DNA of 64,000 bases from Thermoplasmata archaeon (GTDB lineage: Archaea > Thermoplasmatota > Thermoplasmata > Methanomassiliicoccales > Methanomethylophilaceae). Of this stretch, positions 43,971 through 64,000 are shown piece after piece. The DNA is taken from positions 124,001 through 188,000 of the forward strand of contig SUST01000002.1 in the NCBI GenBank assembly GCA_015063285.1, written 5' to 3'. A program made the position numbers and the translations under genes. Positions within the stretch are counted from its first letter, which is position 1. Every line of letters begins with the position of its first letter. Below the pieces are notes generated by a model. It searched no databases, was not told the DNA's origin, and saw only the letters and a list, made by a program, of their open reading frames with translations.

Positions 43971-43978
43971 ACTATCCA

Positions 43979-44022: not shown

Positions 44023-45399
44023 ATGGTAGAGGAAACAGAGAACATTAGCATAATGGGTACCAACCCCGCGAAAGCCATCAGGACAATGTCCATTCCCCTG
44101 ATGTTCGCTTTCTTGCTAGCCAGCGTTCAATTGTATATAGATTCGTTCTGGTGCGCAGGTCTGGGCCCCGATCCGAACTCCGCCATAACGCTGGCTGGGC
44201 CTATATATTGGATAATCCTGGATGTGGGAGCGGGTCTGGGTGTTGGTGCATCTACGGCAATATCCCGTGCACTGGGTGCTAAGAACTATGCCCGTGTGAA
44301 CAGTTTGGCATCCCAGATCATCGTCCTGATGGTTCTGGTCTCTATCGTGCTGTCATTTATCCTGTTCCTTGTATCCGAACCGCTGATCTCATTCATGAGC
44401 GGAGGGAAGAATGTTGACCTCAGTATGGAGTATCTGATTCCATATCTCGTCTGCAGCCCGTTCCTGATGTTGAACGGAATCATCTTAGGAATGCTGAGGG
44501 CCGAAGGGGAGGCCAGACGCTCGTCAGCTCTTTCCATATTCGCATCCTTAATCAATATTATCATGGATCCTATCCTGATCTATGTTCTCGATCTTGGTCT
44601 CTTCGGTGCTGCTTGGGCTACATGTCTGTCATTCATCGTTACCACAGTGATTGGGCTGTGGTGGTATCTTCGCGGCAGACTGTTCATCAAACCTTCATTC
44701 AGGAACTTCCATTTCATAAAGGAGCAGATTTGGGATATCTGCAGGGTCGGAATACCTCATTCCTTGGAGCTTGCGGTCATACCCATGCTGATGATGCCCC
44801 AGAACTCTCTGGTCGTCGCTGTGGGAGGGACGGATGGAATGATTACCTACAGTCTCCCATACCGTTACATCTCCATTGCAATGGTGCCGGCACAGGCCAT
44901 AGCAGCCGCCATGATTCCCGTCGCATCTTACTCTATAGGAAGAGGGGACAGGGAGAATGTCATGTTCAGTTTCAAATACTCCGCCAAGCTGATAGCACTT
45001 ATCAGTATCCTTCTGACGATAGTCCTTATGATATTCGCGGATCCGTTCGCTTGGGCGTTCACATACACTGACGATATGGCGCAGTTCAGGGATGAGATAG
45101 CGATGGTGATCAGGATCTATGCTCTGGTCCTGATCACGATAACCGGAATACACCTGTGCTCATCGATACTGCAGACTCTATGCTATTCTCAGCTCGCTAC
45201 TGTTACGATGTTCATCAGGGAGATAATATTCCTGGTCTTGTTCTACATCTCGACTTTCTTCGATATGACTGCAATCTACTGGTCACTCGACATAGCAGAG
45301 ACGGCAGGCGCATTGCTGATGGTTGCATGCGTACTATATGCATTGAAAAAGACCATACCTAAGTCAGGAATAGTTATGGAAAGATTCAACTCTGTTTGA
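44023..45399 (+). CDS. MATE family efflux transporter (locus A)
   Basis: A 458-aa membrane exporter of the MATE/DinF type with about 12 segments; the first half has SFWCAGLGPDPNSAITL and the second MLMMPQNSLVVAVGG. An AGGGATCT ribosome site precedes its ATG. It lies 52 bp after the double methyltransferase and 2 bp from the convergent second double methyltransferase. It is therefore a natural candidate to export a methylated product or a detoxified ligand made by the locus. Its paralog is at 26.0-27.4 kb. Confidence 0.9.
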   Translation: MVEETENISIMGTNPAKAIRTMSIPLMFAFLLASVQLYIDSFWCAGLGPDPNSAITLAGPIYWIILDVGAGLGVGASTAISRALGAKNYARVNSLASQIIVLMVLVSIVLSFILFLVSEPLISFMSGGKNVDLSMEYLIPYLVCSPFLMLNGIILGMLRAEGEARRSSALSIFASLINIIMDPILIYVLDLGLFGAAWATCLSFIVTTVIGLWWYLRGRLFIKPSFRNFHFIKEQIWDICRVGIPHSLELAVIPMLMMPQNSLVVAVGGTDGMITYSLPYRYISIAMVPAQAIAAAMIPVASYSIGRGDRENVMFSFKYSAKLIALISILLTIVLMIFADPFAWAFTYTDDMAQFRDEIAMVIRIYALVLITITGIHLCSSILQTLCYSQLATVTMFIREIIFLVLFYISTFFDMTAIYWSLDIAETAGALLMVACVLYALKKTIPKSGIVMERFNSV

Positions 45400-45401
45400 T
45401 C

Positions 45402-48587: not shown

Positions 48588-49793
48588 TCAGTCCCCGAGG
48601 TTGGCCTTGGCGATGGCCTCATCCAGTTCCTTCTGGAGTTCTGGGGGCAGTCCGTTGATGGAACCGCCGGAGAGGAATCCCTTGACGATCATGCTGACCG
48701 CCTCATCCTCGCTGAGTCCTCTGGACATCAGGTACTCGATCTGATCCCTTGCGACCTTACCGACAGCCGCCTCATGTGTCATCTCGACATCTGCGATATG
48801 GGCTTCCAGCTCGGGGATGGCAAGAGTCGTTCCTCCATCCTTCAGGATGATGCTCCTGCATTCGAGGTGTCCCTTGGATTCTGGTGCGTTACCGACCATG
48901 CGTCCTCTGGCGCACATCTTTCCGCCCATCGAGATGGACCTGCTCATGATCTCGGCCCTGGATTTCCTTCCGTTGAGGTTGACCATTCCGCCCGTGTCTA
49001 TGTCCGAGCTCTCGTGAGCTATGCACATCGTGTTGTATGTGGCCGAGGAGTTGTCTCCGAGTGTCGCCACAGGGAAGCTCTGGAGAGTTCCGACAGGGTT
49101 CAGGATGACGTAGTTGTTGGTGTAATGGCTGTTCTTACCTACGATACAGTTGGTCCTGGGGCGGACTCCCGTCTGCTTCCCCCAGCTGTGGATCATGCTG
49201 AATGTCAGGCTGGAGTTGTCTCCGATGTAGATCTCGGATACGCCGACATGCAGGGCATCGTTTGCATGGTGGGCGGTTGAGCATCCCGTGATCATCTCCA
49301 GTGATGCATCGTCCTCGACGATGATGATGTTGTGGAGATTCTGAATGGACTTGTTCTTGTTCAGAAGCATGCAGGTCTGGAGAGGATACTTGATGTGGTA
49401 TCCGGATTTCACCCTGACGAAGTAACCGTCCCCGTCCTCGAGGTAGGTCTTCGCGGTGTACTTGTCCTTGGTGGGGTCCATAGCCTTCCAGTAATAGTCC
49501 TTCAGACCATCGTATTTCTTCACGGCCTCTGCTGTGCTCATGAGCTCCAGACCCTCCTGCACCTTGGGGGAGCAGTGGCTGGGCTTGTTGTCGATGAACA
49601 TCAGCGTACCGGAGCGGTCCATCTCGTCTGCGACGATTCCGACGTTCTCCATGTATCTTTTGTAGTCGGAGCTCTCAAGGTCGTCGACTTTGATCTGGTC
49701 GTCCGCTCTCTCCTCGTAGTGTTCGAGGTCGATGTCCTTTCCGTAGGCGGCCTGCTTCTTGAGTGCCTCTTTGACGGTATCGCTGTTCGGCAT
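48588..49793 (-). CDS. sufB: Fe-S cluster scaffold SufB (SufB/SufD family)
   Basis: A 401-aa beta-helix protein of the SufB/SufD family. The ECRSI cysteine near residue 312 and THEAA glutamate near 340 correspond to the cluster-assembly residues of SufB, so I favour SufB over SufD. It lacks the long N-terminal region of bacterial SufB. With SufC alone and no SufD, SufS, SufU or SufE nearby, this is the minimal SufBC scaffold seen in methanogens. It matters here because the window encodes several Fe-S proteins. The sufC stop lies 4 bp upstream of its ATG. Confidence 0.9.
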   Translation of the reverse strand: MPNSDTVKEALKKQAAYGKDIDLEHYEERADDQIKVDDLESSDYKRYMENVGIVADEMDRSGTLMFIDNKPSHCSPKVQEGLELMSTAEAVKKYDGLKDYYWKAMDPTKDKYTAKTYLEDGDGYFVRVKSGYHIKYPLQTCMLLNKNKSIQNLHNIIIVEDDASLEMITGCSTAHHANDALHVGVSEIYIGDNSSLTFSMIHSWGKQTGVRPRTNCIVGKNSHYTNNYVILNPVGTLQSFPVATLGDNSSATYNTMCIAHESSDIDTGGMVNLNGRKSRAEIMSRSISMGGKMCARGRMVGNAPESKGHLECRSIILKDGGTTLAIPELEAHIADVEMTHEAAVGKVARDQIEYLMSRGLSEDEAVSMIVKGFLSGGSINGLPPELQKELDEAIAKANLGD

Positions 49794-49797: not shown

Positions 49798-50514
49798 TCA
49801 CTCTCCGTAGCCGTGTTCCCTGATCTCTTTCAGGAGTTCCATCGGGTCGCCCACACGGTCGACGACTCCGTTCTTCATCACATAACCGTACTTCGCACCG
49901 ATGTAATCCATGATTTGACCGGTGTGAGTGATGACCAATGACGACACATGCCTTCCGGTACTGTCCCTTCCCTCTTCCAGGATGTCGTGGACCTTCCTTC
50001 CGATCAGGTCGATGCTCTCTAGATCGACTCCGGATTCAGGTTCGTCCAAAAGGAGCAACTCGGGGCTCTGCGCTGTGAGCTGCAGGAGCTCGGACCTCTT
50101 GATCTCTCCGCCGGAGAAACCGACGTTGATCTCCCTGTCCATGAACTTCTCCATCCTGAACCTGTCGGCCTCGGCGATCGCCTTATCCGCATCGTTGGCT
50201 GTGGCGCGCAAGAGATCCCCGAGTTTGACTCCGTAGATGTTCGGAGGCCTCTGCATCATCATGCCGATTCCCATTTTGGCACGCTCGTCGACAGGCATAT
50301 CTGTGATGTTCTTGCCCTTGAACAGGATCTCTCCCTGCGTGACCTTGATGGTGCTGTAACCCATGATGCTGGCCAGAAGAGTGGATTTACCACTGCCGTT
50401 GGGTCCGAAGAGTATACTGGTCTCGCCCTCCTTCACAGTGAGGTTGACTCCTTTGAGGATCTCCCTTCCGCCTGCTTCTACATGGAGGTCGACGATGTTC
50501 AGCATGTCAGTCAT
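49798..50514 (-). CDS. sufC: Fe-S cluster assembly ATPase SufC
   Basis: A 238-aa ABC-type ATPase. Walker A FGPNGSGKST is near residue 35, the family-specific signature FSGGEIKRSELLQL near 140, and Walker B LLLLDEPESGVD near 162. SufC powers conformational change in the SufB scaffold. I chose ATG 50514 (MTDMLNIVDLHVEAGG) because the preceding in-frame sequence has no SufC similarity. An AT-rich TATATATT at about 50550-50557, some 35-40 bp upstream, could be its promoter. Confidence 0.94.
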   Translation of the reverse strand: MTDMLNIVDLHVEAGGREILKGVNLTVKEGETSILFGPNGSGKSTLLASIMGYSTIKVTQGEILFKGKNITDMPVDERAKMGIGMMMQRPPNIYGVKLGDLLRATANDADKAIAEADRFRMEKFMDREINVGFSGGEIKRSELLQLTAQSPELLLLDEPESGVDLESIDLIGRKVHDILEEGRDSTGRHVSSLVITHTGQIMDYIGAKYGYVMKNGVVDRVGDPMELLKEIREHGYGE

Positions 50515-50682
50515 TTGTTCACCTTGAATGCTTTCCTCGAATGAGTGGACATATATATTGCGTGCGCCCGACGACCGCGCATATTTCGAAGAATCGGGGG
50601 TGCTTTGCTCCTTCTCAAGCACTATATTGCTATTTTGGGGTACCGGCCAACAATTATGTAGTCACCGTCCGATGCGGAGCGC

Positions 50683-51261
50683 ATGAAAGTCATCGCCATC
50701 AACGGCAGTCCCCGCCCGATTGGGAACACGAGCAACATCCTGCACGACGTACAGGACCTCTTCGAGAGGGAAGGCATCGAGATGGAGATGATCTGCGTCT
50801 ACGACTACCATTTCATGAACTGCAACGTCTGTCTGACCTGCGAGATTCGCGGGGACGGAAGATGTCAGGACGAGGACGACGGGCTGAATGACATCCTCGA
50901 CAAGCTCAGGGAGGCGGATGCGGTATTGATCGCTTCGCCGACCTATTCCAATGCATGTCCTAGTGTTCTTCAGACGTTCCTCGAAAGGGCCTCCCTGGTC
51001 TACGAAAAAGGAGATCTGGGTCTTAACGGCAAAGTAGGCGGGGCGATAGCCGTTTGCGGTCACGACGGAGGTTCGATCGTCTATAACCAATTGGTCGATT
51101 TCCTGCTCCGCAACGGCATGTCGGTGTGCGGGTCAAATCCCCTGCCGATTGTACATGCATTGAATTCTCCTCAATACGAGGATGACAAACAAGGGATGAA
51201 AGGGGTGCATGCCCTGGTGAGGAACATGACCTCCCTCATCCTGAAGCTGAACGGCTACTGA
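50683..51261 (+). CDS. Iron-sulfur flavoprotein (NADPH-dependent FMN reductase family)
   Basis: A 192-aa flavodoxin-fold protein. The FMN phosphate loop is INGSPRPIGNTSN (residues 5-17), and the Fe-S motif is CNVCLTC followed by a cysteine seven residues later (near 47-61). This is the compact four-cysteine motif of Isf-type proteins. SPTYSNACPSVLQTFLERA near 87 is the second flavin loop. Isf passes electrons from ferredoxin in methanogens. It lies beside the nitrogenase-like locus, but the cysteine-rich gene between them converges on it stop to stop, so a functional tie is only possible. Confidence 0.9.
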   Translation: MKVIAINGSPRPIGNTSNILHDVQDLFEREGIEMEMICVYDYHFMNCNVCLTCEIRGDGRCQDEDDGLNDILDKLREADAVLIASPTYSNACPSVLQTFLERASLVYEKGDLGLNGKVGGAIAVCGHDGGSIVYNQLVDFLLRNGMSVCGSNPLPIVHALNSPQYEDDKQGMKGVHALVRNMTSLILKLNGY

Positions 51262-51984
51262 TCAGAAGAAATACCAGCCGCAACCTTCCGCTATGGATAT
51301 CTTGGCGACGGCTTCCATCCTGTCCACGGGTCCGCCGTAGCGGTTTACGTAGACTTTTCCTTCCTTCGGAAGGGCATCCCTCAGGATAGCGACTTCTTTC
51401 AGAAGAGCCTCCGCGTCAGCGGGTGTGAACTTCTTCTGAGCCTTGGCGCTCTGGGGTGCGGATGCTGTGATCGGACAGTTGTATTTGGCAGCGATCTCCG
51501 GGAGTTTGCTGGTGTCGGGTCCGAATGCGCCTATGCATCCACGGCCCTTATCCCACGACAGAGGGCATTTAGCGCAGAGTTCGTTCATCTCATCGAACTC
51601 GAGCTGATCCCAGCCGGTTATGACATCGTCCTTGTCGCATGCCTTCAGGACCTCATCCTTCCTTCCGTCCGAGAGCCCTTCCATGGGGATCCATCCGGTG
51701 CATACCTTCTGGGCCAGCGGTTTGAGCAGTTTGATGTCCTCCTCTTTCTTGACCTTGGTCATATAGACGGCATCGGTCTCCTCATTGATCCTGTTTCTTT
51801 TGATGAAGGCTTCCCAGTCGCCAACGGCCTTCTTGGCCTTATCCAATTCGACGATCTCCTCATATTCTGCGATGTCTTCGAATCCCTTATCGCTCTTGAC
51901 ATGAGCTCTGATTATTGTTGACCTCAAATCCCTGCAAGAAGCGTTCTTGGCTTCCATTTCACATATCCCGATGTTTATCCCCAT
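51262..51984 (-). CDS. Uncharacterised cysteine-rich protein beside the nitrogenase-like genes
   Basis: A 240-aa soluble protein I cannot place. Cysteines cluster in NELCAKCPLSWDKGRGC (CxxC followed by a third Cys), plus CTGWIP, YNCPIT and a C-terminal GCGWYFF. An Fe-S cluster or metal site is plausible. It lies divergently from the NifH-NifD fusion (173-bp shared promoter region) and converges with the flavoprotein gene with no gap between stops. TTTATCAT, about 40 bp upstream on its strand, could be the TATA box. It could be an electron-transfer or maturation partner of the reductase. Confidence 0.8.
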   Translation of the reverse strand: MGINIGICEMEAKNASCRDLRSTIIRAHVKSDKGFEDIAEYEEIVELDKAKKAVGDWEAFIKRNRINEETDAVYMTKVKKEEDIKLLKPLAQKVCTGWIPMEGLSDGRKDEVLKACDKDDVITGWDQLEFDEMNELCAKCPLSWDKGRGCIGAFGPDTSKLPEIAAKYNCPITASAPQSAKAQKKFTPADAEALLKEVAILRDALPKEGKVYVNRYGGPVDRMEAVAKISIAEGCGWYFF

Positions 51985-52157: not shown

Positions 52158-54311
52158 ATGCCGATGTATCAGCTCGCATTGTACGGAAAGGGCGGTATTG
52201 GGAAATCGACCATGGCTGCCAACATGTCGGTCGCCCTGGCAAGGAAAGGCAAGAGGATCATGCAGGTAGGATGCGATCCAAAGCACGATTCTACCAGGTT
52301 GCTCCTCAATGGTAAGGCGCAGCCGACCGTACTCGATTATGTCCGCAACACCCCTATCGGCAAAAGGAAACTGGAAGATCTCATAATGACAGGTACGGAC
52401 GGGGTCCTTTGCACCGAGGCAGGAGGTCCTGAGCCCGGTATCGGCTGTGCCGGACGCGGTATCCTGACAACATTCGATACCCTGAAGAAGCTGGGTGCGG
52501 ACGAATTGGATGTCGACATGAAGATCTACGATGTTCTCGGGGATGTGGTCTGTGGAGGATTCGCTGTTCCGCTCAGAGGCGAATATGCTGACGGGATTAT
52601 TCTGGTCACATCAGGCGAATTCATGGCGATGTATGCTGCCAACAATATCATGAAAGGTCTCGGGAACTTCGATACGGGCTCTCCTCGTTTGATCGGTATC
52701 ATACTCAATTCGCGCGGAGTTGAAGGCGAGGAGGAGCTGGTCAGGAGATTCGCATCCGCAACAGGTACGGAGGTAATCGCGGTCATTCCCAGGGACGGGC
52801 TCTTTGCCGAAGCGGAAGGGAACGGACATACCGTCAGAGAGATGTTCCCTGATTCCAAGATATCAGAGTCTATCGATTCTATAGCACAGAGGATCATCGA
52901 TGTTTCGGAAGGGAAGAGGGATTGCGTCTATCCCAAACCATTGAACGATGACCAGCTTTCGGATCTGGCCGCTGGAAGGGAGATACGTTCGGGAGAGCCG
53001 CCGGCACCGACACGAGATTCTTGCGGCGGATGCGGAGGATGCAAGAGGTCGATCAAGGACTCTCGCATCATGATGTCATGTGCCGCGTACGGTGCCCTTT
53101 CTGCATACATGAAGGTAAGGGATTACGCCGTAGTGCTGCACGGACCTGAGAGCTGCCTGTACTTCATGGATACGTCCAGGAGCAAGGCGATAGTGGAGCT
53201 CTATGACAAAGACATATTCCCGACCGTGCCCACACACAACATAAGGTGCACAATGATGGACGACGCCGTCTCCATCTTCGGAGGCGTGAAGTATCTGGAG
53301 AAGGCACTTCTGGATACTATAGCTGATGGCCACACGAGGATCGCTGTCATCACTACATGCATGCCGGGAATAATCGGGGACGATTGCATTAGCGTCATAG
53401 ACAGGATCATGAAACAGAATCCCGGGGTGGAGATTCAATACGTGCCTGCCGACGGAGACATATGCGGCGAATATACGGACGGATTCATGATGGCTGTCTC
53501 CAACATTGTACAGGATATCGACCTGGATGTAAAACCGGAGAAGAGTCTGGTGAATCTCATAGGTACGTCTTTCTTTGATCTGCATACAAAGAAGCATACC
53601 GAGGAATTGGACAGGATGCTCGGGAGTTTCGGACTGAAGGTCAACTGCAGATTCCTGGACGAGACCGAGTATGAGAAAGTGAAGAACTTCTGCCGTGCGT
53701 CGACAGATATGCTTATCACGGATACTGCGAACAACAGGGAAATCTATGAGCACATCCGCCATCGTACCGGAAGGGAACTCCTTCAGATACCTCTGCCGGT
53801 AGGATTGTATGATTACGAGGAATGGCTGGACCGTATCGGGAAGCTCGTCGGCATGGACAAGGAGGCCAAGGAGGAGATCGCCCGTGTAGAAGCCGAGTAC
53901 GATTCCTTCGTTAAGGATCACAGGTCCCGTTTTGAGGGCAAGAGGATCATAATCATCAACAAACTGTCCTTCAACGTGGATTGGCTGATAGACATCCTGA
54001 TTGATCTGGGAGCGGAACTTCCGCTCATCGCTGCTCAGCCGAGCGCTAGACGGAAGAAGATCGAGTTTGTGTCACGTCATATGGACATGATAACCACAGA
54101 ATACGATACCGATCGCTTCGTGGAGGACATAAGGGCTCTGAAACCAGATCTTATAATCTCCGATATCGCAAGGCAGAACGAAGGGATACGCTTCGCCAGA
54201 GTGGGAAAGATAGGTCTCGGTGTCAGGCCCACCCTTGAATACGCGGAGTATCTGGAGAACATCATTCGTCTTCCCGAGGAGGAGGGCTGGAAGAGGGGGA
54301 GTCTAGAATGA
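52158..54311 (+). CDS. NifH-NifD fusion: nitrogenase-like Fe protein joined to a D-type subunit
   Basis: A 717-aa natural fusion. Residues 1-~260 are a complete NifH-type reductase: P-loop KGGIGKS (11-17), and both 4Fe-4S cysteines, Cys97 (GPEPGIGCAGRG) and Cys132 (DVVCGGFAVPLR). These numbers equal those of A. vinelandii NifH if the start is MPMYQ, which supports ATG 52158. A linker carries CGGCGGC (289-295). Residues ~300-717 are NifD-like with Cys308 (SCAAYGA), Cys333 (HGPESC) and Cys401 (TTCMPGIIGDD), matching the three P-cluster ligands. The catalytic Cys that ligates FeMo-co is not seen. It should be an ATP-driven reductase. It overlaps the K-like gene by 4 bp. Confidence 0.9.
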   Translation: MPMYQLALYGKGGIGKSTMAANMSVALARKGKRIMQVGCDPKHDSTRLLLNGKAQPTVLDYVRNTPIGKRKLEDLIMTGTDGVLCTEAGGPEPGIGCAGRGILTTFDTLKKLGADELDVDMKIYDVLGDVVCGGFAVPLRGEYADGIILVTSGEFMAMYAANNIMKGLGNFDTGSPRLIGIILNSRGVEGEEELVRRFASATGTEVIAVIPRDGLFAEAEGNGHTVREMFPDSKISESIDSIAQRIIDVSEGKRDCVYPKPLNDDQLSDLAAGREIRSGEPPAPTRDSCGGCGGCKRSIKDSRIMMSCAAYGALSAYMKVRDYAVVLHGPESCLYFMDTSRSKAIVELYDKDIFPTVPTHNIRCTMMDDAVSIFGGVKYLEKALLDTIADGHTRIAVITTCMPGIIGDDCISVIDRIMKQNPGVEIQYVPADGDICGEYTDGFMMAVSNIVQDIDLDVKPEKSLVNLIGTSFFDLHTKKHTEELDRMLGSFGLKVNCRFLDETEYEKVKNFCRASTDMLITDTANNREIYEHIRHRTGRELLQIPLPVGLYDYEEWLDRIGKLVGMDKEAKEEIARVEAEYDSFVKDHRSRFEGKRIIIINKLSFNVDWLIDILIDLGAELPLIAAQPSARRKKIEFVSRHMDMITTEYDTDRFVEDIRALKPDLIISDIARQNEGIRFARVGKIGLGVRPTLEYAEYLENIIRLPEEEGWKRGSLE

Positions 54312-55582
54312 AGAGGACGTTGCCCGACGGATTCGTAGGTGCTGTGATGGCGGTAGAGAGCATCTCCGATGCAGTCGCATTCCTTCATGGTCCCGGAGGA
54401 TGCAGAGTAAGATTCATGGTCTACTCCAGCGCAGTATTCCCGAGGATCAGGCTTGAGGAGAACGACAGCTACTTCATTCCGTACTTCTGCGGATATCCAA
54501 GGGTCCCCGCTACATATCTGGACGAATACGATTACATCAACGGAGCCTACTATAAGTTGGAGGAGGGTCTTCCTATTGTGGACAGCAAGGATCCCGGTCT
54601 GATAGTCATAATAAATTCGCCCGGTGCCGCGCTCATCGGCGATAACCATGAACGTGCGATCAGAGAAGCAGGTCTGGAGGACAGGGCCATATTCATGGAC
54701 GAATCATTGGTCTCCATACCCATGACGCAAGGCTACGACCATACTTTGCTGGAGATAATGAAGCATCTTAACCCGGTCAAGGAGAGGACTGACAAGGACA
54801 CTGTCAATCTGATCGGCATGACCGTAATGGACAAGGATTTCAAGGCCGCCATAGACGAGATGACGGAGAACATAGAATTCATGGGATTGAAAGTAAGATG
54901 CGTCCCGGGTGCTGGAGCGGATCTTGATGGTCTCAAGGATTCGGTCAATTCTGAGTACTGCGTGGTGGTATGTCCGGAAGCATGTCAGGACCTTTCTGAA
55001 TACTATCGGTCTAAAGGTCTGAAGATAATACGTTCGGAAGCTGGGGCGCCTGTGGGATTCGATGCCACCGAGGCTTTCTACAGGAAGATAGCCGAGGTCA
55101 CAGGCAAGGATGCATCGATCCCGATCTCGAAAGTCTCCAAGGCGAGGGACACGATCTATCAGAAGTTCGTAGGTATGAGGTATAACGCCCTCCGCATCAA
55201 AGGGTTGAAGTTCTCTGCGGCAGGCATCGCATCGGTCGTCAGACCCCTGTCGGAATGGCTGTACAGCTATCTTGCGGTAGCACCGGTGGCCGTTGATGTC
55301 GATCCCGGTGCGGATCAGTCGGAATCCGAGAAGCTCAAGCAGTTCCTTGAATCGGTTGATTACGGGCAATCCTTTGGAGTCGAACCTAAGGTCGGTTCGG
55401 ACATAGTTCTCTGCGAAGGCATCACAGCTACAACGATGAGGCTCAACGGCGAATGCAAGATAGGTATACCGATAGGTCACTCCTCAATGGGCCTAGACGA
55501 TGTGATCCCCCGTCCGATTTACGGCATCCAGGGTGCTTTGTACATCCTCGATGAGATACTCCACGGTGTCCGCAGTTCCTGA
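54308..55582 (+). CDS. NifK/BchB/BchZ-like subunit of the nitrogenase-like complex
   Basis: A 424-aa partner of the fusion protein, coupled by ATGA overlap. Only one P-cluster-type cysteine is clear: Cys32 in LHGPGGCRVRF, the equivalent of the single BchZ cysteine or the BchB aspartate. The position of the second (INSPGAALIGD) has Ser/Pro instead of Cys, and the first is absent. Extra cysteines such as Cys61 (YFCGYP) are unassigned. With the three D-type cysteines, this gives a four-ligand 4Fe-4S site at the subunit interface, as in chlorophyllide reductase. The protein is shorter than NifK. Function as a substrate-binding or catalytic subunit is inferred. Confidence 0.85.
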   Translation: MKRTLPDGFVGAVMAVESISDAVAFLHGPGGCRVRFMVYSSAVFPRIRLEENDSYFIPYFCGYPRVPATYLDEYDYINGAYYKLEEGLPIVDSKDPGLIVIINSPGAALIGDNHERAIREAGLEDRAIFMDESLVSIPMTQGYDHTLLEIMKHLNPVKERTDKDTVNLIGMTVMDKDFKAAIDEMTENIEFMGLKVRCVPGAGADLDGLKDSVNSEYCVVVCPEACQDLSEYYRSKGLKIIRSEAGAPVGFDATEAFYRKIAEVTGKDASIPISKVSKARDTIYQKFVGMRYNALRIKGLKFSAAGIASVVRPLSEWLYSYLAVAPVAVDVDPGADQSESEKLKQFLESVDYGQSFGVEPKVGSDIVLCEGITATTMRLNGECKIGIPIGHSSMGLDDVIPRPIYGIQGALYILDEILHGVRSS

Positions 55583-56359
55583 TCAAACCTTCCTGGTCTT
55601 CAGCAGGTAGTAGTCCAAGGCGAAGAACGCTATTCCGAATGCGATCAATACGACCAAGGATATCCATGGGAAGTCCGGGATCGCATCCGGCAGACAAGCT
55701 GCCCTTATCATGAGACTGGAGTGAGTGAGCGGCAGACAGTACAGTATGGCCTGGAATACGATATTCAGGGAGTCGACTGAGAAGAACGTTCCGCACAGGA
55801 ATGTCATCGGGAGGATGACCAGGCTGTTGAATGTTGCCATGCTCGCATGTGATTTCGCAATCAATGCAGCTGCCATTCCCAACATGGAGAATACGACGCA
55901 GCTCAGGATCACGCATATGACAGCTAAAGGTGTGAGGGCGAGATCCGGGGCCAGGAATAGTCCTAGAGCGTACATCACGAAGCACCCTAGGATCCCTCTT
56001 ATGAATCCGAGCATGCTCTTGCCGAAGATGATGGCAGCGTTACTGAGCGGGCACATCATCATCTCGTCGAAGCTCCTGTAGTAGAGTCTCTGAACGTTGA
56101 TTCTTGCCGATGTGGATGAGAATGACGAGGACATCGAGGTCAGGGCCATGATACCAGGGATGACGAATGCAATGTAAGAGACCCCTATCTCCGTTTCTCC
56201 GGACCTGAGTCCGTACCCGAAGGCGATTAGGTACAGCAGAGGAGTCATGATAGTCATTATCAGTGTATTCCAGAAGGTGTGCTTCAGATACATGATGTCC
56301 GACCAAGCTACATGATACACTTGGTGGAAGAAGTCTGTATTTCTGACGTATTCGGTCAT
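55583..56359 (-). CDS. ABC-2 type exporter permease
   Basis: A 258-aa permease with about six membrane segments and the ABC-2 signature region (LPMTFLCGTFFSVDSLNIVFQAILYCLPLTHSS near residue 190). It pairs with the ATPase gene upstream by a 4-bp overlap. Its stop is immediately next to the stop of the NifK-like gene (TGATCA shared junction), so the two operons converge with no gap. The pair likely exports lipid, drug or a cofactor-related compound. It could equally be an unrelated drug pump. Confidence 0.9.
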   Translation of the reverse strand: MTEYVRNTDFFHQVYHVAWSDIMYLKHTFWNTLIMTIMTPLLYLIAFGYGLRSGETEIGVSYIAFVIPGIMALTSMSSSFSSTSARINVQRLYYRSFDEMMMCPLSNAAIIFGKSMLGFIRGILGCFVMYALGLFLAPDLALTPLAVICVILSCVVFSMLGMAAALIAKSHASMATFNSLVILPMTFLCGTFFSVDSLNIVFQAILYCLPLTHSSLMIRAACLPDAIPDFPWISLVVLIAFGIAFFALDYYLLKTRKV

Positions 56360-57213
56360 CTCTGATCACCTACCGATTTACCGGTGAGCTCAACGAAGAC
56401 GTCCTCCAGGGTCGTCCTCCTCATGACGGCGTCCTCTAGCTTATTGTCTGTAACATACTGCTGGGCATCATGCATCGAATTGAAGTACTTGTACACGGTC
56501 TTCTTCCCTTCCAGGTTCTCTACGCACATCTTTCCCGTCCTGTCAATCAGCGCTCTCGGGGTATCCAATGCGATGATCTTTCCGCGATCTATGATGCCGA
56601 CCCTGTCGCATAGGACCTGAGCCTCTTCGATGTAGTGGGTGGTGAGGACGATGGTGGTCCCAGTGGCATTCAGTCTCTTCACGACATCCCAGAGCAGACG
56701 CCTCGCGTTGATGTCAAGACCTGTCGTGGGTTCGTCCAGGAACAGGACCTTGGGCTGATGGAGCATCGCGCACACGATGGCCGCCCTCTTCTTCCATCCC
56801 CCCGATAATGAATCGACGGGCTTGTCCAGATATTCCCCCAATCCGAAGTATTCAGTGAGTTCAGAGATCCTCTCGTCCCTTTCCTTTTTGCCCATGCCGT
56901 GATACATCGCATGTGAGATCATGTTCTCGCGGATGGTGAGATCCTTATCAAGGGAGATCTGCTGCTGTATGACTCCGATGTACTGCTTCGCATGAGTCTG
57001 GTCCTTGATGATATCAACACCGTTCACCAGGACCTGTCCAGAAGTGATGTTGGTGAGCGTGGAGATGCATCTTACGGTGGTTGTTTTTCCTGCACCGTTG
57101 GGGCCCAGGAAACCGAACAGCTCACCGTCATGCACGGAGAATGATATCCCGTCAACGGCCGTCTTGTCCCCGTACTTCTTCACGAGATTGTTTATCTCTA
57201 TCACATCGCCCAT
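56356..57213 (-). CDS. ABC-2 exporter ATPase (CcmA/DrrA-like)
   Basis: A 285-aa ATPase. Walker A GPNGAGKTT is near residue 37, the signature LSGGWKKRAAIVCAML near 139 and Walker B VLFLDEP near 160. A C-terminal domain of DrrA type follows (VENLEGKKTVYKYF... TLEDVFVELTG). In the signature the usual Gln of LSGGQ is Trp, common in this subfamily. ATG 57213 (MGDVIEINNLVKKYG) has a TATA-like GTTATATCC about 25-30 bp upstream (57237-57245). It forms a two-gene operon with the permease. Confidence 0.92.
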   Translation of the reverse strand: MGDVIEINNLVKKYGDKTAVDGISFSVHDGELFGFLGPNGAGKTTTVRCISTLTNITSGQVLVNGVDIIKDQTHAKQYIGVIQQQISLDKDLTIRENMISHAMYHGMGKKERDERISELTEYFGLGEYLDKPVDSLSGGWKKRAAIVCAMLHQPKVLFLDEPTTGLDINARRLLWDVVKRLNATGTTIVLTTHYIEEAQVLCDRVGIIDRGKIIALDTPRALIDRTGKMCVENLEGKKTVYKYFNSMHDAQQYVTDNKLEDAVMRRTTLEDVFVELTGKSVGDQR

Positions 57214-57294
57214 TATGCTCACTTCAGATGAATGGTAGGATATAACCCCCAGAACTCTATTTGAGCATATCGTCGTTAGGGAGACCTAATTTAC

Positions 57295-57903
57295 TTAGAG
57301 GATTCTGCCATCCCTTCCGATGACAGTCTCTTCGAGCGGTATGTTCTTTCCAGAAGCTTCGATAGAAGCGTGCACAATTCTGGTCAGTTGACTGCAGCAA
57401 GGGACTTCCATCCTTATGACCTTGATCTTTTCGATTGGGTTCTCTTTTAAGATCTCTGTCAATTTGTCAAATCTTGCTCTGTCATCGAGTTTGGGGCATC
57501 CTATGATCAAAGGATCGTTTCCGACGAATTGCTGTTTGAAGTTGTCGACCTTGAAGGCGGTACAGTCTGCTCCAACAACCAATGTATCTTTGAGGAAGTC
57601 CGATTTGGGCGATACGAGAGCAAGTTGGATCGGCCACTGTACTCCAGGGGCAGACATCATGTTTGGACCATTCATCACAATTGGTTGGATTAATGGAGTT
57701 ACCATCGAAGCAGATGGGACATCCACGAAAGAAATCGCATCCTGTGGACATGCGGGAAGACAATCTCCCATCCCGTCACAGTAATTGGGCCTGACAAGCT
57801 TGGCCTTGCCGTTTACAAGGGCAAGTGCGCCTTCATGGCATGCTTCTATGCAAAGCCCGCATCCATCGCATTTGGATTCATCGATCTTTATCGTCTTGGC
57901 CAT
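57295..57903 (-). CDS. 2[4Fe-4S] ferredoxin-domain protein with cysteine-containing C-terminal domain
   Basis: A 202-aa protein. Residues 1-65 hold two CxxCxxCxxxC-type motifs (CDGCGLCIEAC; CDGMGDCLPAC, which has the variant spacing C-x3-G-x-C), so an 8Fe-type ferredoxin is likely. The C-terminal domain carries single cysteines in GADCTAF, IIGCPKLDD and EVPCCSQL. Proteins of this build act as electron carriers beside Hcp or other redox enzymes. It has its own TATA (TTTAAATCC, about 57921-57929). It could feed electrons to the NifH part of the nearby fusion. That link is inference from proximity. Confidence 0.87.
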   Translation of the reverse strand: MAKTIKIDESKCDGCGLCIEACHEGALALVNGKAKLVRPNYCDGMGDCLPACPQDAISFVDVPSASMVTPLIQPIVMNGPNMMSAPGVQWPIQLALVSPKSDFLKDTLVVGADCTAFKVDNFKQQFVGNDPLIIGCPKLDDRARFDKLTEILKENPIEKIKVIRMEVPCCSQLTRIVHASIEASGKNIPLEETVIGRDGRIL

Positions 57904-57954: not shown

Positions 57955-58722
57955 TCAGAGTGCCCCTTCCCTCAGGATGACGTGTGGGCGCCCTTCATCC
58001 TCGATGATACTGCACTTGACATCATAAACGGTTTCTATATTCTCCTTTGTTATAACATCCTCAGGCTTGCCTGTGGCGAATATCTTTCCGTCCTTCATCA
58101 TGATGATGCTGTCCGCATATTTCGCTGCAATGTTCAGGTCGTGGCATATCATTATTACAAGGACGCCGTCCTCGTGAGAGATGTCACGGAGGAGCTTGGT
58201 GACACCTAGCTGATGTTTCACATCCAGGTTTGCAGTAGGTTCATCTAGAAGGAGGATCTCGGGCTGCTGCACAAGACCGCGGGCCAACATAACCTTCTGA
58301 TGTTGTCCTGCACTCAGTTCGTTGAATTTTGAATCTGCCAGGTCGTCTATGCCTAGGCGCTTCAGCATGGAATATACAATCCTCACATCATCTCTTGTTG
58401 CTTTCCAGTTGCTATGGGGATGGCGTCCGAGGAGAACGGCGTCTACTACACTCATGGGGAAGATATCGGACGATGCATACGGGACATACCCGACCTTCTG
58501 GGCCATCTCCTTCATGCGGTAATCATAAGAGTCTTTCCCGTCTATGAATACATGCCCTTCTGGTTTAAGGATACGATCAATACAGTAAATCAGAGTGGAT
58601 TTACCGACCCCGTTAGGTCCAAGGATTGCAACAAGCTGTGCCCCTTCGTATTCTGCGGAGATGCCTTCTAGGACTTTCTTGCTCGGATAGGAAAATCCAA
58701 CACCATTGAGTTTTAATTCCAT
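57955..58722 (-). CDS. FecE-type ABC ATPase (locus B)
   Basis: A 255-aa ATPase of normal length. Walker A GPNGVGKST near residue 37, signature LSAGQHQKVMLARG near 135 and Walker B ILLLDEP near 154. It matches the locus A ATPase closely (for instance LSAGQHQKV, PTANLDVK) but lacks the long tail. It energises uptake of a siderophore, cobalamin or similar complex. It is the last gene of the minus-strand operon, 24 bp after the first permease. Confidence 0.93.
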   Translation of the reverse strand: MELKLNGVGFSYPSKKVLEGISAEYEGAQLVAILGPNGVGKSTLIYCIDRILKPEGHVFIDGKDSYDYRMKEMAQKVGYVPYASSDIFPMSVVDAVLLGRHPHSNWKATRDDVRIVYSMLKRLGIDDLADSKFNELSAGQHQKVMLARGLVQQPEILLLDEPTANLDVKHQLGVTKLLRDISHEDGVLVIMICHDLNIAAKYADSIIMMKDGKIFATGKPEDVITKENIETVYDVKCSIIEDEGRPHVILREGAL

Positions 58723-58746: not shown

Positions 58747-59814
58747 TTATCTTCCCCATCCGCCCGTCCTTATTTTGAACAGGAAATAAAGGAATACGGG
58801 GCTTCCAATTAATGCTGTTACTGCTCCTACAGGAAGACCGGCACCGAATGACCTGGCAAGAGTATCTGCTGCAACCAGAAGGAAAGCGCCGGTTATTGCT
58901 GAACATGGGATCAGTGCGTTTGTTCTCGAACCTACAAGTAGTCTCGAAATATGGGGGACGACCAGTCCTACGAATCCGATGGATCCTGAAAAACTGACGG
59001 CGATGGAGGTGCACGCCGATACGATGACCATGCAGACGAGCCTGGTCCTTTTCGGATTCGTTCCCAGGGAGATCGCCATGTTGTCTCCGGCCGACATAAC
59101 ATCTAGTTTCTTAGAATGGGTAACTGTCAGAATCAGAAGTATTACTACTGAAAGAATGAGCAGAGGTATCGCTCCCCAAGTCACTTTGGAGACTGATCCG
59201 ATGCTCCATTCTATGATTTGCTGAAGAACTTCCGGTTCCGCATTATATTTCAGAACCATGGTAAACGCGGAGAAAATATACATCATTGCGATTCCGATGA
59301 GGATCAGCATTGTCGGGGTTGTTTTCCTTTTTACCGATATCGCTATCATCATAGCGCAGGGAATCATGGAGAAAACGAATGCGTTGAAGACTAGTCCTGA
59401 ATTGTCCGGAAGAGGTAGCAGTATGATTCCGAGTGTCAAACTGATGGTTACACCGAAAAGTGCCGCCGATGAGATTCCTGTGGTATATGGGTCTGCTAAC
59501 GGGTTGCGCACGCAGTACTGCATGATAGCTCCACTAACTCCAAGAATGCATCCTATAAAGGCGGCACCGATAACTCTAGGAAGTGTACCTTCGAATATTA
59601 GAGTGTCCCTTATGCGCTCATAATAGTTGCTGGGCTCAATCCCCTGAAGATGTTTGATAATTACTTCCCAGGATTCTGCGAAAGATATTCCAAAAGACAA
59701 CACACTTACCGAGTATGCCGATATTGCTATGGTGATGATCACTACGGTCAGGATCGCAATCCATCTCCTTCTAGATCTGGCCATATAACGGTCTTCTGCT
59801 TCTTCACCATACAT
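58747..59814 (-). CDS. FecCD-type ABC permease, second subunit (locus B)
   Basis: A 355-aa BtuC/FecCD permease. The signature LPRVIGAAFIGCILGVSGAIMQYCVRNPLADPYTTGISSAA occurs near residues 74-115, and GFVGLVVPHISRLLVG near 280. It overlaps the other permease gene by 11 bp. Locus B therefore has two different permease genes, so a heterodimeric channel is probable, unlike the single permease of locus A. Confidence 0.92.
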   Translation of the reverse strand: MYGEEAEDRYMARSRRRWIAILTVVIITIAISAYSVSVLSFGISFAESWEVIIKHLQGIEPSNYYERIRDTLIFEGTLPRVIGAAFIGCILGVSGAIMQYCVRNPLADPYTTGISSAALFGVTISLTLGIILLPLPDNSGLVFNAFVFSMIPCAMMIAISVKRKTTPTMLILIGIAMMYIFSAFTMVLKYNAEPEVLQQIIEWSIGSVSKVTWGAIPLLILSVVILLILTVTHSKKLDVMSAGDNMAISLGTNPKRTRLVCMVIVSACTSIAVSFSGSIGFVGLVVPHISRLLVGSRTNALIPCSAITGAFLLVAADTLARSFGAGLPVGAVTALIGSPVFLYFLFKIRTGGWGR

Positions 59815-60913
59815 AGGAATTCTTCCTAATTATCAAGTAGAGGAAAATCGGAGCACCTATCAGCGAAAGTGCAGCACCGATTGGTATGTTGTCGTAATCA
59901 GAGACTGCTCTGCATCCCATGTCCGCCAAGAGCATCAGAAGTATGGCGAGGCAGGATGCTGCGGGAATCACATAGCGGTTATCTGAACCAATCACCATGC
60001 GCACTATGTGAGGCGTTACCAGACCTACAAAACCAATAACACCCGCACAGCCCACGATGGCACCAACGATAAACGCTATGGCAACCAAGCAGATGATACG
60101 TAGATTATCTGGATCGACACCGAGACTTGTAGCGCTAGCATCGCCTAGAGACAAGAGGTTGAGTTGTTTGGACAGGAATGTGACAACTAATGAACCTACG
60201 GTCACGAAGAGGATTACGACCGGAAGAACATCCCAACCCACGGAACTCAGTGTTCCTGTTTGCCATGTGTAGATCACAGTTAGGGTCTCCGCGTCCACTG
60301 TGACAAGCAGGAATGTGTTTAGTGAGTTGAACAAATATGATAGGGCCACTCCTGCTAGGATCAGTGTTGAGGGTGATGACCTTGTCTTAGGAGACAGAAG
60401 AACAACCACAGCCATCGGAATCAAAGAAAATAGGAAAGATAAGATGACAATAGTTAGGCTGTCTCCATAATTGATAGAAAGGCCGATTACGACCGCTACC
60501 GCCAGACCTAAACAGGCTCCGGATGACACTCCGACCGTGTAGGGGTCCGCTAAAGGATTGTTCATTAGACTCTGCATTGATGCTCCTGCTATCGCCAATC
60601 CGATAGCGGCAACCACTGTGAATAACATCCTGGGGAGGGAGTTTCCCCAGATGTATGTGTCATCGAACCATTCCTTTGTGTAGATCTCATATTCTACGCC
60701 ACATAGGTGGTTATAGATCACTTCGAGGACTTCGATGAAGCTCAAGTGACGGCCATTGACTGTCATAGAGAAAATAGCAACCACAATTGTTGCTAAAATC
60801 ATTAATAAAAGGATAAGGAGTTTGTTCCTGGCAGAAGAGATGTAGCCTTCTGCCAGGTCGTCTTCGGATTCTATGTAGTTGTTAACTTTCGATTCTATAG
60901 ACTCCTCAGACAT
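59804..60913 (-). CDS. FecCD-type ABC permease, first subunit (locus B)
   Basis: A 369-aa permease with a charged N-terminus of about 30 residues before the first membrane helix. The signature LPRMLFTVVAAIGLAIAGASMQSLMNNPLADPYTVGVSSGA lies near residues 92-132 and GFVGLVTPHIVRMVIG near 295. It lies 7 bp downstream of the binding-protein stop and should pair with the neighbouring permease. It resembles the locus A permease more than its own partner does, as judged by the AGASMQS... and VTPHIVR segments. Confidence 0.92.
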   Translation of the reverse strand: MSEESIESKVNNYIESEDDLAEGYISSARNKLLILLLMILATIVVAIFSMTVNGRHLSFIEVLEVIYNHLCGVEYEIYTKEWFDDTYIWGNSLPRMLFTVVAAIGLAIAGASMQSLMNNPLADPYTVGVSSGACLGLAVAVVIGLSINYGDSLTIVILSFLFSLIPMAVVVLLSPKTRSSPSTLILAGVALSYLFNSLNTFLLVTVDAETLTVIYTWQTGTLSSVGWDVLPVVILFVTVGSLVVTFLSKQLNLLSLGDASATSLGVDPDNLRIICLVAIAFIVGAIVGCAGVIGFVGLVTPHIVRMVIGSDNRYVIPAASCLAILLMLLADMGCRAVSDYDNIPIGAALSLIGAPIFLYLIIRKNSYVW

Positions 60914-60920: not shown

Positions 60921-62297
60921 TCACATCGCTTCGATATCAGATTGGCTCAAGACGAAGTCCAGTTCACTGACCTTATAGAGGCCCCCCATGAACTTGTCGA
61001 CGAATTCCTGGTGGAGTTTGTCTGCATCTTCGAAAGAGTACACATCTGGGTAGAGAATAGCGGCAGTGTACAGGACACGAGCCACAATCGGCATATCTCC
61101 AGATGTGTGCCAAACATTCTTGGACTCATAGGCCTTGAAGTTTTTGAAGTAACCAAGTTGTTTCTGCATTTCTTCGGTATTCCAATTTGCCGAATCATCA
61201 TACCATGAAGCTTTCAAGAATCCTGAGCCCGTCCTGTATGCAATTATGACGTCTCCTTGATACTTATCTTCGTATACACGTGAATCGTACCTAGAATCGC
61301 TCTGATCGAAGTATATGGTGGATCCAGCATCTGACCAGATGGGGTAGATGGCTCCTGCTTGAGTGAGGTAGGCGGTGTAGTCAGAGGATGGCCCAGATAG
61401 ATATGTGTAGTATGCGGTACCGGTTGCCTTGACCTTTTCAGTGACCTTGTCTGTCTTTTTTGCGAGGTCCTTGTAGACTTTGGTGGTCCACTCAGCTACT
61501 TCCTGTGCTGCAGTATCCTTCTGGAAGAGGAATCCGATCAGCAAGAGCGCGGAACAGTAGTCATCGGGGTCGGGTGTGGCATGCTCCAGCCTTACGACAT
61601 CAAGGTTGTATCTCTCTTCTAATTCCTTCTCAGAGAGTCCCTTCTTTCCGTCGAGGTAACCCTTGTTATCTGCAGTAAGGACGCAGGTGGTTCCGGGATT
61701 TGCCTCAAGGCACCCTACTAGAGGTGTCTCGTCGATGTACATGGTACTGGAACCAAGTGAGGGCATTGCTGCATAATCGGGCCAAATGATCTTGTCTGGA
61801 GGAGAACCGGAGGAGTAGTTAATTCCAACGATGTTTTCCTTAATTCCAGTTATCTGATACATGATGAGCGCGTTTGCTGCACCGTTGGCTATCGTCTTAG
61901 ATACCGGCCACTTGGTGGATGCAACATATGTTCCGCTCGGATAAGTAGTAGTGTCCGTTGTGTGGTTCAGGTGGTAGATCTTAGTGTTGTATCCTTTGAG
62001 GATTGCATTGACCTGTTCCAAATCATCTTGGTCGACCTTTCCGTCAAAGTTGGCATCTGCAAGAGGATACTTCTCGAGTGTGTAGCCATCCTCGCCTTTG
62101 ATAATCTTGTTGATGACTGTCTTGTCAGCCTCGTCGATCTTGTAGTCGTTGTCGGCGTTTCCGTAGACTTCGAGTGCGGCATCAATGCTCGCGCCTTTGT
62201 TAGATCCGTTGTTGAAGATCATGAAGGCGGCGATACCTGCCACGACCAGAACGAGGACAACAACGACAGCAATGATTTTAGTCGTGTTCTCATTCAT
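60921..62297 (-). CDS. Membrane-anchored FecB/BtuF-like binding protein with dockerin-type domain (locus B)
   Basis: A 458-aa paralog of the locus A protein with identical length and plan: N-terminal anchor (about 8-28), dockerin-like EF-hand pair (VYGNADNDYKIDEAD and ADANFDGKVDQDD, about 43-100), then a periplasmic-binding-protein-2 domain. Sequence outside the calcium loops is strongly diverged, so ligands probably differ. It starts the operon of two permeases and an ATPase. It has no lipobox. The ATCCAAGTGATATT leader before the ATG resembles that of the locus A gene. Confidence 0.87.
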   Translation of the reverse strand: MNENTTKIIAVVVVLVLVVAGIAAFMIFNNGSNKGASIDAALEVYGNADNDYKIDEADKTVINKIIKGEDGYTLEKYPLADANFDGKVDQDDLEQVNAILKGYNTKIYHLNHTTDTTTYPSGTYVASTKWPVSKTIANGAANALIMYQITGIKENIVGINYSSGSPPDKIIWPDYAAMPSLGSSTMYIDETPLVGCLEANPGTTCVLTADNKGYLDGKKGLSEKELEERYNLDVVRLEHATPDPDDYCSALLLIGFLFQKDTAAQEVAEWTTKVYKDLAKKTDKVTEKVKATGTAYYTYLSGPSSDYTAYLTQAGAIYPIWSDAGSTIYFDQSDSRYDSRVYEDKYQGDVIIAYRTGSGFLKASWYDDSANWNTEEMQKQLGYFKNFKAYESKNVWHTSGDMPIVARVLYTAAILYPDVYSFEDADKLHQEFVDKFMGGLYKVSELDFVLSQSDIEAM

Positions 62298-62548: not shown

Positions 62549-63574
62549 ATGGACAAACTTCTCTTCCCGTTCGTTTCCATAGTTGGTCAGGAGGACATGA
62601 AAAAGGCCCTTCTCCTCAACATAGTCGATCCAAGCATCGGAGGCGCCCTTCTGAAAGGTGAGAAGGGTACAGCAAAATCCACGACGGTTCGTTCTCTGGC
62701 GCAGATACTTCCTTTCAGAGAGACCGTGGAGGGATGCCCCTTCAATTGCGATCCAAACAAGCCCGATACCCTCTGTCCTGAATGTGCTGAGAAGGTCAAA
62801 CAGGGCAAACAGCTGCAGGTCGCTAAGAACCGTATGAGGGTCGTGGAGCTCCCTCTGAGCGCTACGGAGGATCGTGTAGCAGGAACCTTGGACATCGAAC
62901 ATGTCCTGAAGACCGGTGAGAAGAAGTTCGAACCGGGAGTATTGGCGCAGGCCAACGGGAACCTGCTGTATGTGGACGAGGTCAATCTCCTGGACGATCA
63001 CATCGTCGATCTGCTTTTGGACTCCGCGGCAATGGGAGTCAACTATGTCGAAAGGGAAGGAGTTTCTTTCGCCCACGCCGCACGTTTCATCCTGGTCGGG
63101 ACCATGAACCCTGAGGAAGGGGAGCTTAGACCACAGCTCTTAGACAGGTTCGGATTGTCCGTGGATGTCAAAGGCGACAAGGATATGGATGTCCGCATGG
63201 AAGTCGTGAAGAGGAGGGTCGCATTCGACATGGATCCCGCCCAGTACACCAAATCCTGCAAGGACGAATCAGATAAGCTCATGGAGAGGCTCACACAGGC
63301 CCGTGAGAATGTCTTCAAGGTCTCTGCCGATGATTCCATCATCAAGGCTATTGTAACGATCACTACCTCGTTCGGAATCGACGGTCATAGAGCAGACATT
63401 ACGATGCTGAAGGCAGCCAAGGCCAATGCTGCGCTGGAAGGCAGGAAAGAGGTCACCAAGGATGACCTCAGGGCGGTGGCGGCACTTGTGCTGTCCCATC
63501 GCATGAGGCGCAGGCCTTTCGAGGAGGCCGCGTTCGATACGGAGGAACTCGAGAGATGCCTCCAGTCTATCTGA
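62549..63574 (+). CDS. BchI/ChlI-like AAA+ subunit of a Mg/Co/Ni-chelatase-type enzyme
   Basis: A 341-aa AAA+ ATPase of the magnesium-chelatase I family. The P-loop GEKGTAKS is at 37-44, a cysteine-bearing insert (CPFNCDPNKPDTLCPEC) near 62-80, Walker B LLYVDEVNLLDDHIVD near 143, and the sensor motif GTMNPEEGELRPQLLDRFGL near 185. It works as a hexameric motor for a tetrapyrrole chelatase. The catalytic H/CobN-type subunit is not in view. In methanogens such subunits support cobalt or nickel tetrapyrrole chelation. It overlaps the following D-type gene by 19 bp. Confidence 0.94.
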   Translation: MDKLLFPFVSIVGQEDMKKALLLNIVDPSIGGALLKGEKGTAKSTTVRSLAQILPFRETVEGCPFNCDPNKPDTLCPECAEKVKQGKQLQVAKNRMRVVELPLSATEDRVAGTLDIEHVLKTGEKKFEPGVLAQANGNLLYVDEVNLLDDHIVDLLLDSAAMGVNYVEREGVSFAHAARFILVGTMNPEEGELRPQLLDRFGLSVDVKGDKDMDVRMEVVKRRVAFDMDPAQYTKSCKDESDKLMERLTQARENVFKVSADDSIIKAIVTITTSFGIDGHRADITMLKAAKANAALEGRKEVTKDDLRAVAALVLSHRMRRRPFEEAAFDTEELERCLQSI

Positions 63575-64000
63575 GGGCGTTCCCGTTCTCAGCGGTCCTC
63601 GGCATGGATGATGCCAAGAGGGCCATGCAATGCATCCTGGTGAACCCTAACCTCAGAACGGTGATGATAAGGGGCGGACAGGGAACAGCGAAGACCGTTC
63701 TGGCAAGGTCCGTTGGCCGTATCTCGGGGAAGAGTATAATCAACGTTCCCGTCAACGTCTCCGAGGAACAGCTGTTCGGCGGAATGGATATCGATAGGAC
63801 CATAAAATCGGGCAAGGCAGTGATGCAGCCGGGGATATTGTCCAGGGCGGATGGGAACATCCTTTACGTGGACGATGTAAATCTGATGGATCAGAGGATG
63901 CTGCTTTCGCTTTTGAACGCGGTCATTGACGGAAGTGTGGTGCTGGAGAGGGAGGGCATCTCTGCGGAATACGCTGTGGACACGGTATTGATCGCAACCA
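63556..64000 (+). CDS. BchD/ChlD-like chelatase subunit, truncated by window end
   Basis: The frame starts with ATG 63556 (MPPVYLRAFPFSAVLGMDD), 19 bp inside the I-subunit gene, and runs 148 codons to the window edge. It shows P-loop RGGQGTAKT near residue 39, Walker B ILYVDDVNLMDQRML near 99 and the LEREGIS segment shared with the I subunit. The D subunit normally adds an acidic linker and a C-terminal integrin-I/VWA domain, which would lie outside the window. It pairs with BchI to drive chelatase. Coupling by overlap supports a single operon. Confidence 0.87.
   Translation, partial: MPPVYLRAFPFSAVLGMDDAKRAMQCILVNPNLRTVMIRGGQGTAKTVLARSVGRISGKSIINVPVNVSEEQLFGGMDIDRTIKSGKAVMQPGILSRADGNILYVDDVNLMDQRMLLSLLNAVIDGSVVLEREGISAEYAVDTVLIAT

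Follow-up and report, generated by a model that had tools for sequence, protein, structure and literature searches.

A NifH–NifD-like fusion protein associated with CobN-type chelatase genes in gut Methanomassiliicoccales is a candidate tetrapyrrole reductase

Introduction

Nitrogenase-like enzymes catalyse reductions that rank among the most difficult in biology, and for several of their clades no function has been assigned. A gene pair of this type is present in a 64,000-nucleotide stretch of the draft genome of a Thermoplasmata archaeon (contig SUST01000002.1, positions 124,001 to 188,000, here G000:C2:124001-188000; the entire stretch is to be referred to as the window). The genome has a size of 1.79 Mb, is 97% complete and is closely related to Methanomassiliicoccales of the gut and rumen. 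In the first gene, a NifH-like and a NifD-like protein are joined in one polypeptide (HD), and the second gene encodes a NifK-like partner (K). The two will be referred to together as HDK.

The closest described systems are chlorophyllide oxidoreductase (COR, BchXYZ), dark-operative protochlorophyllide oxidoreductase (DPOR, BchLNB), and CfbCD of F430 synthesis. COR consists of an Fe protein and a heterodimer, with three cluster cysteines on the D side and one on the K side, and a class I chelatase (ChlI/ChlD/ChlH) acts in its pathway. HDK is similar in all of these respects. In COR, however, H and D are unfused, BchX has no equivalent of Cys85, and the proteins belong to separate clades. To our knowledge, the host organism makes no chlorophyll. 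The likeness to DPOR lies in K, which is most similar to BchB, and in the single [4Fe-4S] cluster to be expected at the D-K interface. The BchB ligand is an aspartate, however, where K has a cysteine, and DPOR is unfused and forms a separate clade. CfbCD is an ATP-driven tetrapyrrole reductase of methanogens and is also paired with a chelatase. In contrast to HDK, its CfbD component is one subunit that forms a homodimer, and it belongs to a distinct clade; the HDK genome has its own cfb locus.

Fusions with the same gene architecture as HDK have been reported. Dos Santos et al. (2012; PMC3464626) mentioned ('data not shown') that Archaea, Firmicutes and Deltaproteobacteria have nifH-nifE fusions with a nifN-like gene downstream, and noted that ABC (ATP-binding cassette) transporters adjoin some nitrogenase-like genes. 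A 'fused nifH/nifE' was described in Ca. M. intestinalis by Borrel et al. (2014; PMC4153887). Neither report gave a link to a chelatase, to CbiZ or to co-occurring genes, or a function, which sets them apart from the present analysis. On the chelatase side, the superfamily of HmuS, CobN and ChlH includes the CobN linked to HDK as well as HmuS, which removes the metal from haem in gut anaerobes (PMC12583661). The same 2025 paper described the functions of methanogen CobN proteins as unclear, with no association with cob genes, and a 2022 study considered it unclear what role chlD has in archaea that make B12 anaerobically (PMC9227772). A literature search that covered few subscription papers and preprints found no report linking the fusion to CobN. 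The fusion architecture is already on record, and its coupling to a chelatase appears to be new. This coupling makes the idea of a tetrapyrrole substrate testable.

Results and Discussion

Organization of HD and K

The HD gene is located on the forward strand (52158..54311) and encodes 717 residues, with a NifH-like part (residues 1-270) and a NifD/E-like part (residues ~300-717). The Pfam matches in this one polypeptide are Fer4_NifH (4.7e-91) and, after it, Oxidored_nitro (6.3e-56). The start codon may be the ATG at 52164 instead of 52158, as in close relatives (MYQ..). The NifH-like ATPase domain (52158..52967, forward; Fer4_NifH) carries the two 4Fe-4S ligands, C97 (52446-52448) and C132 (52551-52553). 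It is followed by a linker of 36 residues, counted up to C308 (52968..53078, forward), which contains a CxxCxxC motif (C289, C292, C295). The NifD/E-like domain (53079..54308, forward) has the ligands C308 (53079-53081), C333 (53154-53156) and C401 (53358-53360). The NifK/BchB-like partner K (54308..55582, forward; 424 residues; Oxidored_nitro 2.8e-37) has a lone cluster cysteine, C32 (54401-54403), and its reading frame overlaps that of HD through an ATGA. A preliminary description of this DNA had placed NifH and NifD in a single chain and had named these six ligand cysteines; the single open reading frame with two Pfam domains agrees with the former, and each cysteine is found where it had been placed.

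The fusion is a recurrent feature. Of 60 related genomes, 36 contain relatives of the D part, many of them in several copies, the largest number being about a dozen, and nearly all of these copies are single open frames of about 700-750 residues. Matches at E<=1e-15 are confined to the same order (23 of 293 genomes sampled across the phylum). Most of the 58 fusion loci sampled likewise have one open frame of this length, and a few (L050, L066, L075) are split. The relatives are 25-80% identical and come from many independent assemblies, which excludes a sequencing error or a lost stop codon, a possibility that had been raised against the fusion. The fusion is not a one-off, and it had been mentioned in passing in 2012 and 2014 (PMC3464626, PMC4153887). 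The distances among D sequences and among K sequences show a correlation of 0.96, as expected for obligate partners.

Across the family, the linker has 25-59 residues (counted to the first D cysteine), and its CxxCxxC motif is partly kept, with C289 in 30 of 53 members and C292 in 26 of 53. The fusion had been thought to fix the Fe protein to its acceptor. This now appears weaker, as a linker of 25-59 residues provides a tether but need not prevent cycling. Such a natural tether offers a ready test of whether the Fe protein has to dissociate from one electron transfer to the next.

Cluster ligands

The ligand cysteines are almost invariant in the family alignment. C97 and C132 of H are conserved in 53/53 sequences, as are C333 and C401 of D, while C308 is present in 52/53 and C32 of K in 51/51. 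HDK thus has the composition of a group IV-type two-component reductase, a NifH with both cluster cysteines together with a NifD/K-type component. The K residue C32 aligns to Asp36 of BchB, and phmmer pairs it with the cysteine of the D36C mutant structure 3aet. The aspartate ligand of DPOR is therefore absent, with cysteine at this position in all 51 K sequences. The other two P-cluster cysteines of NifK have no conserved counterpart in K in the family alignment, and at the two D alignment columns of the FeMo-cofactor ligands of NifD (C275/H442), neither Cys nor His is conserved.

The resulting set of three D cysteines and one K cysteine is that of COR (BchXYZ), in a comparison with two BchYZ sets aligned here and with established knowledge. 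From these sequences, one [4Fe-4S] cluster per D-K interface is predicted. The preliminary description spoke of a chlorophyllide-reductase-style pattern, which is correct for the ligands (3+1 Cys) but does not carry over to the phylogeny, where neither D nor K groups with BchYZ with good support.

Position among nitrogenase-like proteins

The H, D and K sequences each form one clade (support 97/94, 100/100 and 100/99, respectively). These clades lie apart from the NIF/VNF, DPOR, COR, Mar-like (methylthio-alkane reductase), CfbCD and Treponema references, which are few and have long branches, so that the deep order is uncertain. The Mar-like reference (L088, Chlorohelix) was identified through gene context only. 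The scores of H and D are far under the NCBIfam cut-offs for nifH and nifD, and the best sequence match of K is BchB (55 bits). As first proposed, HDK is not a nitrogenase (NifHDK/VnfDK): it lacks the FeMo-cofactor Cys and His ligands, K has a single cluster cysteine, and the proteins fall outside the NIF/VNF clades.

HDK is also not the F430 enzyme (CfbCD) of this organism. On contig C18 of the window genome, two CfbA-like chelatase genes flank an H gene of the CfbC type, and the genes for a MurF-like protein and CfbD are next to this group. Moreover, CfbD is a separate clade (100/100), and HDK has both a D and a K subunit. A placement within CfbC/CfbD or NifHDK and the lack of a separate cfb copy, which would have spoken against the first interpretation, are both contradicted by these results. 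The H gene of the cfb locus (L085:3432-4253, on G000:C18) clusters in the tree with the Treponema H (99/97), away from the remaining CfbC proteins, and ends in CxxCxxC, which suggests a replaced CfbC.

Association with a chelatase and importers

Profiles built for this analysis were used to annotate the 58 loci. A FecCD permease lies within 11 kb (<=11 kb) of 40 of the 58 HD loci, compared to about 17% expected by chance. Other neighbours include genes for a BtuF-like protein (39 loci), an ABC-2 exporter permease (25), CobN (15), Suf (14) and CbiZ (6). Three genomes from another family (L059, L061, L064) have the genes in a unidirectional run, BtuF-BtuC-BtuD-CbiZ-ChlI-ChlD-HD-K, next to which lie CobN, a pair of ABC-2 exporter genes and a gene for an isochorismatase-family hydrolase.

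The presence of CobN follows that of the fusion. Among Methanomassiliicoccales genomes, all >=87% complete by listed estimates, CobN is found in 32 of 36 with the fusion and in 0 of 20 without it (raw Fisher p 1.4e-11, for related genomes), and the contrast repeats within four genera (g1, g12, g15, g20). The two are linked physically as well. For a distance of 15 kb, set before counting, CobN lies within that range (<=15 kb) of HD in 12 of 37 copies, compared to 2.6 expected, and several more pairs are found at 15.1-19 kb.

CbiD is a marker of anaerobic B12 synthesis, and it is present in 19 of 20 fusion genomes. The presence of CobN therefore cannot be put down to the lack of an anaerobic B12 route, and a part for it in ordinary B12 synthesis is unlikely. 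CbiZ is widespread (26/28), with extra copies in several fusion genomes, some of which adjoin CobN or HDK.

Proposed function and alternatives

Taken together, HDK is probably (at roughly 0.58) a [4Fe-4S] reductase driven by ATP that acts on a tetrapyrrole taken up from outside or being remodelled, perhaps a corrinoid, and works in salvage or remodelling with CobN-ChlI-ChlD. The H part would dimerise on one [4Fe-4S] cluster (C97/C132), hydrolyse ATP and pass on low-potential electrons. These would reach the [4Fe-4S] cluster held by the three D cysteines and one K cysteine, where a bound organic substrate would be reduced. The covalent tether would raise the local concentration of the Fe protein, and would be long enough for its docking and release. 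The tetrapyrrole would enter via the BtuFCD/FecCD-type importer and be handled by the CobN-ChlI-ChlD chelatase, in a route distinct from F430 and de novo B12 synthesis. A corrinoid-like substrate is possible because some clusters add CbiZ, which suggests corrinoids for those clusters. ChlI together with ChlD favours ATP-driven metal insertion, as known from class I chelatase biochemistry. Members of the CobN/ChlH superfamily can also remove metal, as shown by HmuS (PMC12583661). Insertion or removal of the metal, and reduction before or after this step, would each be compatible with the gene context. The earlier inference of a tetrapyrrole reductase has thus gained strong support from the co-occurrence and clustering with CobN/ChlI/ChlD, B12/haem-type importers and CbiZ.

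Several observations weigh against this assignment. The genomes are related, and p-values therefore overstate their independence. Four genomes (G033, G040, G304, G178) have the fusion without CobN, so that the coupling is not absolute, and many HD copies have no chelatase gene nearby, with draft contigs accounting for part of them only. FecCD importers carry siderophores too. In the trees, D and K do not join BchNB/BchYZ with good support, among long branches that leave deep placement uncertain, and the best profile scores of D are with the NifD/VnfD/NifE models. The AlphaFold models, made from seven sequences, have a mean pLDDT (predicted local distance difference test) of only 60 for HD and 53 for K. 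With these low-confidence models, Foldseek finds nitrogenase-type folds, the D side being nearest VnfD/NifD/NifE and the K side nearest BchB and Mar.

The role of the importers is read differently if the substrate of HDK is a ferric siderophore or another metal complex taken up by the cell, whose reduction frees the metal in the cytoplasm. In this view, FecCD importers and Suf genes serve iron acquisition, and CobN is a mere neighbour within one metal regulon. Few neighbours are commoner than the FecCD importers (40/58), with up to 31 such permeases in fusion-bearing genomes, Suf genes adjoin 14 of 58 loci, and a coupling of metal transport and cofactor assembly was proposed in 2012 (PMC3464626). 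This explanation is unlikely, however, as it does not account for CobN in 32/36 fusion genomes compared to 0/20 others, or for CbiZ in the same operon.

The gene context would be the same if HDK lowered the oxidation state of a tetrapyrrole-bound metal, for instance from Co(II) to Co(I) in a corrinoid, and left the ring unchanged, for adenosylation, dealkylation or demetallation. Activating enzymes are known to use ATP in reducing the cobalt of corrinoids (PMC6739815), and the ATP-driven activation complex of methyl-coenzyme M reductase provides a precedent for reduction of a tetrapyrrole metal (PMC12176620). On the other hand, DPOR, COR and CfbCD, the characterised nitrogenase-like enzymes of tetrapyrroles, reduce the ring (PMC7242693), and a role of HDK in metal reduction is rather doubtful.

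The high scores of D with NifD/VnfD/NifE models and the Suf genes often found adjacent could also indicate a NifEN-like maturase or scaffold, which assembles a metallocluster destined for another enzyme or inserts it there. This is improbable, since no nifB or radical-SAM (S-adenosylmethionine) neighbour is seen in the window, K is without two of the three P-cluster cysteines, and the window genome has no NifDK-type client besides CfbD. Finally, an enzyme of sulfur assimilation resembling methylthio-alkane reductase (Mar) or isethionate reductase (Isr), both of them group IV nitrogenase-like relatives (PMC11423573, PMC12552129), is the least probable of these alternatives, as the cysteine patterns differ (one in IsrD and three in IsrK; full P-cluster ligands in Mar), the Mar-like Chlorohelix reference falls outside the HDK clades, and no sulfonate or O-acetylhomoserine genes are seen near the window locus.

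The tetrapyrrole reductase assignment can be extended, speculatively, to a salvage pathway in gut methanogens that has not been described before. Metal-containing tetrapyrroles, namely corrinoids, haem or products of chlorophyll breakdown, would be imported by BtuFCD-type systems and reduced by HDK, CobN-ChlI-ChlD would insert or remove the metal, and the ABC-2 pair would export the spent or finished ring. Such a pathway, if true, would give a function to the HD-fusion clade and to the orphan archaeal CobN. Salvage of corrinoids or haem by HDK would bear on competition for metals and B12 in the gut and on livestock methane emission.

Gene neighbourhood in the window genome

Downstream of HDK, the order in the window genome is ABC-2 pair, ferredoxin, importer, ChlI, ChlD and CobN. 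The ABC-2 type exporter consists of a permease (55583..56359, reverse strand; PF01061 3.9e-17; 25/58 loci) and an ATPase (56356..57222, reverse). A 2x[4Fe-4S] ferredoxin-like protein (57295..57903, reverse) is a possible electron donor. The importer has a BtuD/haem-type ATPase (57955..58722, reverse), for which the best NCBIfam match, under the cut-off, is a haem ABC ATPase, two FecCD/BtuC permeases (58747..59814 and 59804..60913, both reverse) and a BtuF-like substrate-binding protein (60921..62297, reverse; PF01497 4.3e-5, under the Pfam cut-off). The ChlI/BchI-type chelatase ATPase (62549..63574, forward) scores 432 bits with TIGR02030 (cut-off 467) and 491 bits with TIGR02442 (cut-off 779). 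Only the start of the ChlD-type subunit is in the window (63556..64000, forward), and the gene continues beyond its end. CobN follows ChlD past the window end, at about G000:C2:189438-193175. It passes the equivalog TIGR02257 (932 bits, cut-off 822) and is closer to the solved CobN than to ChlH or HmuS (723 bits for CobN compared to 379 for HmuS). It is therefore CobN-like, not HmuS-like, and it has ChlI and ChlD as partners.

Upstream of HDK are a SufB/D Fe-S assembly protein (48588..49793, reverse; PF01458 9.1e-45; 14/58 loci) and a SufC ATPase (49798..50622, reverse; 14/58 loci), the latter assigned from its sequence and its place beside SufB. A flavodoxin-like flavin mononucleotide reductase (50683..51261, forward; PF03358 3.6e-27; 21/58 loci) is a possible electron supply. 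Between it and HD lies a protein of 240 residues with no Pfam match (51262..51984, reverse), kept in 18/58 loci. A search with Rfam found tRNAs only, with no riboswitch.

A second FecCD importer is located in the window (38978-46877) between large proteins with two SAM-methyltransferase domains, and such proteins are found near some HDK copies as well. The number of FecCD permeases per genome is 3 to 31, with 14 in the window genome, an unusually large investment for small archaeal genomes.

Related loci and in-frame TAG codons

A search of plasmids brought up just reference operons and a Treponema relative in which the genes are unfused, and no fusion. In this relative, on plasmid pTS1 of Treponema saccharophilum (L087 / L120, 87-93 kb), an unfused H-D-K adjoins a BtuFCD-type importer and an isochorismatase-type cysteine-hydrolase gene. 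No CobN is present in the 46 kb viewed, and His replaces the first cluster Cys of D. In some genomes from another family of the order (G055:C1:236-252 kb and G057:C24; L106-L108), NifHDKEN-like and Mar-like sets are found separate from the fusion.

The ChlD gene of the window genome (L084:3557-5437; G000:C2:187556-189436) has two in-frame TAG codons in a Gln/Glu/Pro-rich linker, and readthrough gives about 626 residues, a normal size. These codons may be read as pyrrolysine; the genome has PylB. One or two in-frame TAG codons are also present in several CobN genes (G000:C4:104925-108230, G018:C4:174190, G030:C1:49066, G008:C38:9483, G196:C1:1098715), and some HD copies, such as that at G006:C1:1531315, contain one.

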